A DNA stretch of 64,000 nt, from positions 94,417-158,416 of IMG/VR virus record IMGVR_UViG_3300034072_002212; one strand, given 5' to 3'. Source of the stretch: a virus. This document shows positions 1-45,373 of the stretch, one piece after another; positions within the stretch are counted from its first letter, which is position 1, and the number at the start of each line of letters is the position of its first letter. A program made the position numbers and the translations under genes. The notes under the pieces are model-generated. The model did not search any database, had not been told where the DNA came from, and worked only from the letters and a program-made list of their open reading frames with translations.

Positions 1-1507
1 GGTAGTTGAGAACCTTGCGATGCTTATCGAAGAAGTCATAGCGGTTCTCGACCTGGAAGGCTTCCTCAACGACGCCCTTCAGCTCAAGAAGCTGAGTTGG
101 CACCTTCGCTGGATCACCCTCATCGTATAGGTCCTGAGATTCATATACACCCTCAAGGTGCACCTGGACATTATGATTCATGAGCATCGCGTAGGTAACC
201 ACGTCCCACGTGGAAGTGAACTTGGGGTCCACGTTCACGCAGATGTCACCCATCTTCAACTGCTCACCAATCTTGGTGCGAACAAAGCGCGAGCCCTCGA
301 CATTGTCCAGACGCTCGTGGAACATCTCCTCGAGAACATCGAGGAATGGACGGTCAGCATCTGGGCCCTTGGGTGGCAGCGGGATCTTGTCACCGTTTGC
401 GTCCAAGAGATACTTGATGCGGCCCTTGCCCGTGCCTAGCATTTCATAGCCAATCTGCTCCACACCCTCATCGTCGATGTAGGTATTGGTTGGCAGATAG
501 TTGCGGCCATCCAGCTTCTCACCCTGGATGCTCCAGCTTTCCTTGTTCAGGTTGTAGCCAAGGAACACCTTGCCATAAGCTGCTAGGGTGAACGGAGAGC
601 TCACGTCGTAGCTGATGGTGAAGTTGGGGTTGATGCTCTCACGCACCTTGCGCTGAATCGTTGTGTAGACGCAACCGTGCTGGAACTTGCCAACACCGAG
701 GAAGTGCATCCAGTCTCGGTCCTGTAGGAGACCATCGTCCCTCATGTCCAGGATACGTCCAAGTGCCATCTCAAAGTTTTCCTTGTGATGGCTTGCCAGC
801 GACCAACCCTCGAAAGGATAGTGCTTGACGTTCTCATACCAGTTCTTGGATTCGCTTGGATTACGACCCTGAACGACGTTCAGGAACTTGGTTGCGCCCG
901 GAACGCGATTGGCAACGAAGTAGTCGTTGTTGATGAGAGTCTGAAGCATGCAGGCATAGAACAGGCGAACGTTCTTGTCCTTGGGATCCTTGCCGTTCTT
1001 GATGATCAGATCATCCAATGCCTGCTTGTTGCCCGAATCAACGACATTGGGATCTAGCGGATGCTCAAGACGTGCGAGGTGCTGGTCGATGTTGCCAATC
1101 TGAATACCACCAGTGGGAAAGTCGAGGATCATCGACCAATCGCAGTTGGCTTCCATCCAGCGCATCATGCGCTCGCGGGTCTTGTCACCCTCGAACTTGA
1201 TAGCACCAGTCTGGATCTGGAATCCACCCGAGTCACCCAGAACGGTCGTTGGGCCGCGATCGCGTCCGGTGACCATGTCCTTGCGCTCAGAGAGGCCGGC
1301 ACTCTTTGCTGCCTGACCCGCCGAGTAGAGCGAGCATGGCAGGTAGAACAGGCTGCTGTTCGGGTTAAAGAAGTTCAGCTCTTCCCTAGGAATGGGAGGC
1401 TCACGCTTCGGGTTCTCCGCGTTCACATAGCGGACATACATTTCGGAGATAGCGGGAGTGAATCGCGCATAGTCGCGATACCGCTTGGAGTAGTCAATTC
1501 CGGGCAT
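1..1507 (-). CDS. TGT-superfamily (DpdA-like) base-exchange enzyme, cut by left edge
   Basis: Member of the tRNA-guanine transglycosylase superfamily, which exchanges guanine for a 7-deazaguanine; phage members (DpdA) modify DNA. Read from ATG at 1507 (GAGG 7 bases upstream) with no stop to the left edge, so at least 502 residues and partial. Visible: GDSGGFQ at residues 91-97 (TGT substrate-pocket Asp motif), LDFPT near 128-132, FLNVVQG (TGT: FGIVQGG), then FLGVG followed by SYDVSSPF where TGTs carry the nucleophilic Asp. DpdA fits better than a queuine tRNA enzyme because the sequence is long and diverged, but a tRNA substrate is not excluded. No preQ0 biosynthesis gene (queC/D/E, folE) is in the window. 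A TAAATA box lies about 50 bases upstream. Confidence 0.75.
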   Translation of the reverse strand, partial: MPGIDYSKRYRDYARFTPAISEMYVRYVNAENPKREPPIPREELNFFNPNSSLFYLPCSLYSAGQAAKSAGLSERKDMVTGRDRGPTTVLGDSGGFQIQTGAIKFEGDKTRERMMRWMEANCDWSMILDFPTGGIQIGNIDQHLARLEHPLDPNVVDSGNKQALDDLIIKNGKDPKDKNVRLFYACMLQTLINNDYFVANRVPGATKFLNVVQGRNPSESKNWYENVKHYPFEGWSLASHHKENFEMALGRILDMRDDGLLQDRDWMHFLGVGKFQHGCVYTTIQRKVRESINPNFTISYDVSSPFTLAAYGKVFLGYNLNKESWSIQGEKLDGRNYLPTNTYIDDEGVEQIGYEMLGTGKGRIKYLLDANGDKIPLPPKGPDADRPFLDVLEEMFHERLDNVEGSRFVRTKIGEQLKMGDICVNVDPKFTSTWDVVTYAMLMNHNVQVHLEGVYESQDLYDEGDPAKVPTQLLELKGVVEEAFQVENRYDFFDKHRKVLNY

Positions 1508-1566: not shown

Positions 1567-2403
1567 TCAACTTCTGAATGTAATCCTGGTGATTTTACCC
1601 TGGTCGGCGGGGAGAACCAGCTCATCGTCCTCGAGCTGCTCATAGGCGTTATAGACCCAGAACCTCACCCACATCAAGTTTGCTTCGATGGAATAAGCGT
1701 GGATCCCGGTATTGTGATCGAACTCATGAGTCTCGATGTCGAACCAGTCCCACAGACCTGGAGTGCCTGGCTCAACGGAACCCTGAACCGTCAGCTTGCC
1801 GGTGAAGTTGTCATTGTGGAGCACAACGGTGTGAAGACCCGCGGTGTTTCCAGTCTGCATGGAACCCGGCAATGCGCTGGAAAAGCGGAACGAAGTTTCG
1901 CCCCCGTCTTCTTCCTCAGCAAAGGTGTGGAGATCTTCATACAAGACAGTCTGGCTAGGACGTGGATCAAAGACAGGACCCTGTAGAAGCTCTAGGAAGC
2001 CCCTCTGACACTCGTTGGCATCAACGTAGAGCATATGAGTGGATCCGTCAGTGTTGGTCACTGTGACGCTGTAGCTGTAGGTCTGAAGCAGCCAGTCAGC
2101 CATGATGTCTGGCTCGATGTTGAGCTTGCAGATGCCTTTGGCTTCATTGACAATCTTCAGATCCTTTGTCCACATCAATTTGTTGGTGCGGTGATCATAG
2201 ATGTTGATCTTGGCGCTGCGACCCATCATATTAACGGGCTTGCGGTCGGTGTTTCTAACCACGAACTCGATGGTATTCTGCACGTCTTTGAAGACACGGA
2301 AGTCATTGGTGTTCATGGGCAGGTTCCAATTCACGACGCCATGGGGAAACTCCCTGAGGGTCAGTTCAATCTTGCGCTTCTTGTCGATGAGAAAGACTGT
2401 CAT
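1567..2403 (-). CDS. putative virion protein, unknown function
   Basis: 278 residues, ATG at 2403. I do not recognise a specific family. The first ~100 residues alternate hydrophobic and polar positions as in a beta-rich domain, with a middle phrase (YSYSVTVTNTDGS) typical of the N-terminal baseplate-attachment domain of BppU-like fibres and related phage structural proteins. The C-terminal half (LTVQGSVEP... FWVYNAYEQL) also looks beta-rich. A late-promoter palindrome lies about 40 bases upstream, which supports a late structural role. Calling it a baseplate or fibre component is inference. Confidence 0.6.
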   Translation of the reverse strand: MTVFLIDKKRKIELTLREFPHGVVNWNLPMNTNDFRVFKDVQNTIEFVVRNTDRKPVNMMGRSAKINIYDHRTNKLMWTKDLKIVNEAKGICKLNIEPDIMADWLLQTYSYSVTVTNTDGSTHMLYVDANECQRGFLELLQGPVFDPRPSQTVLYEDLHTFAEEEDGGETSFRFSSALPGSMQTGNTAGLHTVVLHNDNFTGKLTVQGSVEPGTPGLWDWFDIETHEFDHNTGIHAYSIEANLMWVRFWVYNAYEQLEDDELVLPADQGKITRITFRS

Positions 2404-44323: not shown

Positions 44324-44389
44324 CAAGCGTGGATCCCAGGGTCGCACCTTGTTATAGACAACAACCTATCAAACGGTAAGGTGAGTAAA

Positions 44390-45373
44390 ATGAATCTCAA
44401 GAACCAAATCCTCGATCTTTCGCGTCAGAACAACATCGGCGCACTCTCCCCATTCATCGACAAGATGTTCGACGAACAGCTCGCTGCAGGCGTCTTCCCG
44501 ACCACTGCCAAGCTGGAACAGGTTCGCGACGACATCATCGCTTTCCTCGTCGGCTATCGCGAGCAGACGGGACGTGACACGGTGGTCCTCGGAATGTCGG
44601 GCGGTGTTGACTCGGCTCTGACCGCAGCACTGTTCAAGAGCGCCGGCTGGCGCGTGGTCGGCTTCACGCTGCCCATCAACCAGAACCCAGACGAGACGGC
44701 GCGCGGCATCGAGGCTTGCGAAGCCCTCGATATCGAGCATTTCCAGAAGGACCTGACCAAGGCCTACAATGCTCTGCTCGATGAAGTCGCCGAGCATGAT
44801 CCCCTGCTGCTCGATCTCGACAGCAAGGACACGGCAGTTCTCATCCGTCGCGGCAACATCCGCGCCCGTGCTCGCATGATCACGCTCTACAACATGGCCA
44901 ATTTCCACAACGGCATCGTGGCCTCGACCGACAACTTCAGCGAACTGGCGGCCGGCTTCTGGACCCTCCACGGCGACGTAGGCGACGTTTCGCCCATCCA
45001 GGCTCTGCTGAAGAGCTGGGAGGTCCCCTACATTTCGAGCATCGCCGGCGTGCCCGAGAGCACCTATCGCGCCACGCCGACCGATGGTCTCGGCATCAGC
45101 AATGGTGACGAAGCGCAGCTGGGCGCCAGCTACCTCGAATGGGACATCATGGTCAACGCCATGATCCAGTATGATCTGGCCTCGCTGGAGGCAATGATCG
45201 CAGAGAGCGGCGACATCCGCGCTGCGGAGGTGTTCGAGGCAGTCACGCGCCGCCTAGGCGGCAGCTGGTTCAAGCGCATGAATCCGGTCAACACCAAGCA
45301 CCCGCTCTTCCCCGAGCGGTATGAGCAGCTGGCCGGCGTCGACCAGGAGTTCCATCCCGCGGTCGTCCGCTAA
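44390..45373 (+). CDS. nadE: NAD+ synthetase, ammonia-type
   Basis: 327 residues. Converts nicotinic acid adenine dinucleotide to NAD+ with ATP and ammonia; no glutaminase domain is present. PP-loop SGGVDS near 69-74; RGNIRARARM near 155-164; STDNFSELAAGFWTLHGDVG near 178-197; TPTDGLGISNGDEAQLG near 228-244. ATG at 44390 is preferred over an upstream GTG because AAGGTGAG stands 5 bases before it. Last step of the phage's NAD+ salvage set. Higher GC than the flanking small genes, suggesting acquisition. Confidence 0.95.
   Translation: MNLKNQILDLSRQNNIGALSPFIDKMFDEQLAAGVFPTTAKLEQVRDDIIAFLVGYREQTGRDTVVLGMSGGVDSALTAALFKSAGWRVVGFTLPINQNPDETARGIEACEALDIEHFQKDLTKAYNALLDEVAEHDPLLLDLDSKDTAVLIRRGNIRARARMITLYNMANFHNGIVASTDNFSELAAGFWTLHGDVGDVSPIQALLKSWEVPYISSIAGVPESTYRATPTDGLGISNGDEAQLGASYLEWDIMVNAMIQYDLASLEAMIAESGDIRAAEVFEAVTRRLGGSWFKRMNPVNTKHPLFPERYEQLAGVDQEFHPAVVR

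Follow-up and report, generated by a model that had tools for sequence, protein, structure and literature searches.

tRNA-guanine transglycosylases (TGTs) act through a covalent intermediate between an aspartate and the nucleic acid, from which guanine is released and exchanged for another base. A 2023 paper in Nucleic Acids Research on further phage 7-deazaguanines is said to place dCDG among the phage bases. The subject of this analysis is a TGT-like protein encoded at the left edge of a 64,000-nucleotide stretch of viral DNA (the window: IMG/VR record IMGVR_UViG_3300034072_002212, positions 94,417 to 158,416), which the initial annotation had read as a DpdA-like enzyme of DNA hypermodification. 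Among described phages, nt-1, which encodes DpdA2, carries deazaguanines in its DNA, and a deazaguanine-type modification protects the DNA of CAjan from restriction; 48 phages have deazaguanine-pathway genes and no DpdA (Hutinet et al. 2019; PMC6884629). Fold, catalytic residues, kinship to DpdA2 and linkage to FolE and QueE support the hypermodification reading, and we put at about 0.6 the probability that the window protein represents a new family of DpdA, acting as a DNA-guanine transglycosylase in a pathway of 7-carboxy-7-deazaguanine (CDG) insertion followed by putative glycosylation.

The gene occupies positions 1..1507 of the window on the minus strand (open reading frame 2-1507, ATG start); codons 1-502 of 559 fall inside and the frame is open at the left edge, where the protein had been noted. 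The full gene spans 94244-95923 of G000, the 182-kb contig fragment that holds the window (L001:4245-5924, where L numbers denote extracted stretches), with its 3' end 172 nt beyond the left window edge. The clear TGT catalytic-pocket motifs claimed for this long, diverged protein were confirmed (D92-SGGFQ, M126-x-L-D129, VQG, H268-FLG and D301-xSSP). DSGGFQ (residues 92-97; 1217..1234, on the minus strand like all motifs that follow) holds the general acid/base aspartate of TGTs, and D92, S93, G95 and Q97 are found in 76 of 76 aligned phage relatives. The substrate-recognition aspartate is D129 of M-x-L-D-x-P (1121..1123); NVVQG (residues 210-214; 866..880) and HFLG (residues 268-271; 695..706) pair with IIQG and YLMG of E. 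coli TGT, and ISYDVSSP (residues 298-305; 593..616), which contains the predicted nucleophile D301, pairs with FDCVMPT. D92, D129, G214, H268 and D301 are invariant throughout the phage alignment, and D92, D129 and D301 are kept in all 53 bacterial relatives readable at those columns. Classical TGTs have a zinc motif, CxCx2C, that is absent here, the ligand set CxCx2C...H being reduced to DxC...H; in the window protein this partly kept site is D421-x-C423...H445 (173..247), and the complete motif is retained in a relative from PhiXhv (L022). A change from GG to SH or HH at residues 239-241 in the window clade was considered as a sign of CDG binding and set aside as too speculative.

An AlphaFold2 model of the protein, for which only window and IMG/VR sequences were supplied, reached a pLDDT of 91.6 and a pTM of 0.90. 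When the model was compared with the PDB by Foldseek, nine matches had E < 0.001, all of them TGT/QTRT chains or the bacterial DpdA 7ui4; VIA-align gave Z 19.2 to archaeosine TGT (rmsd 4.5, 293 residues) and approximately 18 to bacterial TGT, and the BFVD matches included nt-1 DpdA2 and a TGT of Motura phage. In an hhalign comparison with E. coli TGT, the VQG, FLGVG and YDVSSP motifs line up. With the protein or its alignment as query, no useful sequence match emerged from Pfam, PHROGs, NCBIfam, PADLOC or the PDB, so that these libraries miss what the initial annotation had recognised. The predicted TGT-type fold and TGT catalytic residues, together with the gene linkage described below, are well supported; chance is excluded, since conservation of the family extends to at least 593 viral stretches and the model matches TGT and DpdA ahead of other folds. 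Base exchange by the window protein is very probable.

The closest relatives were found in jumbo phages of 436-465 kb and in Sinorhizobium phage Phosso (469 kb, 55%), followed by eleven records of PA5oct-like Pseudomonas phages (31%) and then Vibrio phage 2.275.O, in all of which the protein carries the annotation 'hypothetical protein'; Xanthomonas PhiXhv phages and Erwinia Ep032 gave weak matches. A query of IMG/VR with the alignment recovered at least 593 viral relatives, which scans of its viral contigs with the single PA5oct and Vibrio proteins had not returned. Profile-profile comparison by hhalign matched the family to phage DpdA2 (probability 95.5, E 1.6e-8), whereas hmmsearch of the new profile against DpdA2 proteins, and the reverse, gave no match; judged from sequence, the family is therefore related to DpdA2 yet separate, with members in jumbo phages and Alphaproteobacteria. 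The family is real, and it is new relative to the libraries searched and to DpdA2, 9g and 7ui4. Grouping with tRNA-modifying TGTs had been named beforehand as grounds for abandoning the DNA reading; the opposite was observed, in that the window protein does not reach the Pfam TGT cut-off (PF01702), shows profile similarity to DpdA2 and has lost CxCx2C.

Precursor and partner genes had been suspected, correctly, to lie outside the window, and a search to the left for queC/D/E and folE had been proposed. A QueD-like gene lies on the same contig (G000:48798-49283), in which HGY replaces the HGH zinc motif; FolE, QueE and QueC are absent from the 182-kb fragment, but FolE and QueE stand close together in every near-complete relative (G001-G003) and in the complete phage Phosso. 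Of approximately 91 family loci, 45 have FolE and 32 have QueE on the same strand as dpdA and downstream of it; no locus has either gene upstream. A true QueC was not found in G000-G003, Phosso, PA5oct or 10 of 11 long contigs; the contig of L084 has QueC, PhiXhv has a Gat-QueC-like fusion, and the Vibrio 2.275.O homologue is near QueF, YhhQ, QueC and FolE. With FolE, QueD and QueE and no QueC, the pathway stops at CDG (PMC6884629, PMC13329287). Since FolE, the QueD-like gene and QueE are kept while QueC is missing, CDG rather than preQ0 is somewhat favoured as the base. The QueD-like protein of the window phage, at L118:1498-2031 (G000:48795-49328), and those of its relatives carry FRQW near the first zinc histidine as well as HGY where QueD has HGH, and their function may differ from that of QueD. 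Two candidates for pathway genes were rejected: the window frame at 44381-45373 (plus strand), considered as QueC, is an NAD synthase gene (PF02540, E 5.6e-40), here carried by a phage, and the radical SAM gene at G000:168071, considered as QueE, belongs instead to an RlmN/Cfr-like enzyme encoded right of the window (G000:167708-168589; L143:1138-2019).

Clustering of the neighbours at approximately 90 loci revealed two further families, one of proteins of about 370 aa (61 loci) and one of 144 aa (62 loci), which accompany the family more constantly than any other genes. Members of the former match Pfam glycosyltransferase group 1, with a best E of 3e-7, and are GT-B-like. The model of the latter (pLDDT 89.2) is a T-fold of the QueD/PTPS type, whose top PDB matches were PTPS (Z 11.5) and QueD (Z 10.2); hhalign of this alignment against a single QueD was unsuccessful, and the fold was settled by structure. 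Both genes stand beside FolE and QueE, and in most phages beside dpdA too; in the window clade the four form one cluster, with gene starts in Phosso at 150419 (QueD-fold), 150799 (glycosyltransferase, GT), 152414 (FolE) and 154955 (QueE), an order also seen in G001-G003. The cluster of these three relatives includes a phosphoribosyltransferase (PF00156, with E 1e-18 in G001), and near that of G001 is an Ogg-HhH DNA glycosylase-like gene (L177:10098-10664; PF22175, E 6e-8).

When the GT was used as a tblastn query, exactly 20 of 50,697 phage records matched, and all 20 carry a DpdA-type protein. In 16 this is the new DpdA or its PhiXhv-type relative (Xanthomonas/Erwinia); in the other four, two of ACP17 and one each of Xanthomonas X1 and Synechococcus BUCT-ZZ01, it is DpdA2, which the GT adjoins directly in ACP17 and X1 and with one small gene between in BUCT-ZZ01. 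These three phages each have a homologue of the QueD-fold protein (E 8e-40 or better), FolE and QueE, and no QueC is annotated in the ACP17 and X1 clusters. The 20 records count near-identical phages (11 Pseudomonas, 4 PhiXhv/Ep032), leaving approximately six independent cases. Nothing argues more strongly for a place of the GT in the deazaguanine pathway than its co-occurrence with DpdA-type proteins from distinct lineages. The retention of DpdA with base-making genes and a sugar-transferring enzyme suggests a sugar-coated DNA base not previously described; putative glycosylation of the inserted base by the GT is favoured by a little over even odds at most, and for a widespread phage pathway that writes glycosylated CDG or a derivative, its GT shared by several DpdA lineages, the odds appear evenly balanced.

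Some observations near these loci stand apart. PhiXhv-12 has a run of Gat-QueC, a PIG-L de-N-acetylase and the GT (L175:3411-6645), an arrangement suggesting that the base may bear an amino sugar; the deacetylase was rejected as a general partner, being confined to PhiXhv. In BUCT-ZZ01, a second, different GT-B-like protein with an N-terminal QH-[HY]-[IF]-P-x-GGIG pattern is encoded beside DpdA2 (L255:4010-5350), and a similar-looking protein occurs near bacterial DpdA-GT loci (L196:13065-14297).

Several points weigh against CDG insertion followed by glycosylation. The contig is a fragment, and the GT, FolE and QueE of the window phage itself are deduced from its close relatives; the Pfam scores of the GT are weak, with copies from the window's own clade at 0.02 or without a match; Vibrio 2.275.O has no GT, and phages with a DpdA and no GT include the nt-1/KVP40 type as well. 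QueC could come from the host, and PhiXhv combines Gat-QueC with the GT. It is possible, albeit unlikely, that preQ0 or 7-amido-7-deazaguanine (ADG) is inserted as in known DpdA phages, that CDG is finished by a host QueC, and that the GT acts on a different base or on the host surface. Queuosine is made by both PAO1 and Sinorhizobium, which have a QueC of their own. Moreover, Mycobacterium phage Bipper lacks QueC alone, and preQ0 versus CDG is undecided there (PMC6884629). Given the QueC or Gat-QueC of PhiXhv, Vibrio 2.275.O and the L084 contig, CDG cannot be assumed throughout the family. Yet QueC is repeatedly missing from diverse phages that retain FolE and QueE, and a GT serving something else is hard to explain when in phages it always accompanies a DpdA-type protein, mostly in proximity to DpdA or FolE/QueE.

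A TGT that alters the tRNA of the infected cell would account for a fold at least as close to tRNA TGTs as to DpdA, and effects on tRNA have been proposed for phages with pathway genes and without DpdA (PMC6884629). This is improbable for the window protein, which has no Pfam TGT match, has mostly lost the zinc motif and clearly resembles in profile DpdA2, the type encoded by nt-1, a phage with deazaguanine-containing DNA. An ATGA overlap joins the gene to the start of a DNA primase gene, a DnaB-like helicase gene is next, a DNA polymerase B gene lies a few kb away in most relatives, and the 64-kb window contains no tRNA genes. Its placement in a late region was thus only half right: a 278-aa virion-protein-like gene (1567..2403, minus strand), the conserved upstream neighbour of dpdA in the window clade, lies on one side, and replication genes flank the other. 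A TGT-fold protein without exchange activity, which might bind DNA or be structural near the replication genes, would fit the length, the divergence and the half-lost zinc site, but the catalytic residues are invariant in 76 phage and approximately 50 bacterial members and the linkage to base-synthesis genes is tight, making this reading very improbable indeed.

We therefore return to the DNA-guanine transglycosylase. DpdA would flip guanine out of phage DNA, whereupon D301 would cut the glycosidic bond, forming a covalent enzyme-DNA intermediate and releasing guanine, and a 7-deazaguanine made by the phage, most likely CDG from FolE, the QueD-like protein and QueE, would take its place. DNA is the presumed target because of the coupling to replication genes and the kinship with DpdA2, and placement of a 7-deazaguanine into it is highly likely. 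The GT-B-like glycosyltransferase and the small QueD-fold protein would probably then add a sugar to the base, a step proposed because the GT is linked to pathway genes. By analogy with CAjan (PMC6884629), the hypermodified guanine would block restriction enzymes. The phosphoribosyltransferase of the cluster may recycle the freed guanine.

A scan of bacterial genomes returned 61 relatives, mostly alphaproteobacterial, among which L200, L202, L203, L207 and L208 appear phage-like, having the gene set seen in the phages. At seven bacterial loci the neighbours of a dpdA-like gene include the same GT and a transporter of VUT type (PF02592, with scores close to the cut-off). The bacterial loci may represent a mobile DNA-modification island, for which PADLOC gave no match. 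On alpha- and betaproteobacterial chromosomes (L182-L199, L209-L238), the DpdA-like gene adjoins an uncharacterised protein of approximately 500 aa at 38 loci, and a 189-aa catalytic-only tyrosine recombinase is often beside it (28 loci). A 556-aa PAS-sensor-like protein is encoded elsewhere on the contig (G000:84786-86456; L002:10287-11957), and the same neighbourhood of Phosso has a gene annotated as a PAS domain S-box protein.

For some of the pathway phages considered to lack DpdA, the absent enzyme could come from a family such as this one, which escapes sequence searches; Vibrio 2.275.O, PA5oct and Phosso have both the pathway genes and a new DpdA-type protein annotated as hypothetical. 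If the sugar step is true, base exchange and glycosylation, two known strategies of DNA armour, would be joined in one pathway, a possible reason for the restriction resistance of some jumbo phages. Cultured phages with the family or the GT exist (Phosso, PA5oct, Paride and ACP17), and the prediction is directly testable in them.

Compared with known systems, the window protein shares with tRNA TGT (Tgt, PF01702) the fold and the positions of the catalytic aspartates, but it fails the Pfam model, has DxC for CxCx2C and is linked to phage DNA replication and GT genes. The bacterial DpdA of the dpd island (PDB 7ui4) matches the model with E 1.5e-5, although sequence similarity is undetectable and a PADLOC scan of the protein and its bacterial neighbours was negative. 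The chemistry proposed here is identical to that of the 9g/CAjan-type phage DpdA, which differs in its length of 317 aa, its adjoining Gat-QueC and a profile similarity that is not detectable (E 0.44 with one 9g sequence). DpdA2 of nt-1 (YP_008125322) is approximately 100 aa shorter, and nt-1 has QueC and, according to PMC6884629, ArcS, whereas the window clade is without QueC; nevertheless, DSGG[FL]Q, LD-x-IP, H-x-LG-x-G and ISYD are in register between the two proteins, and DpdA2 has FolE and QueD as neighbours and, in ACP17, X1 and BUCT-ZZ01, the GT and QueD-fold partners as well.
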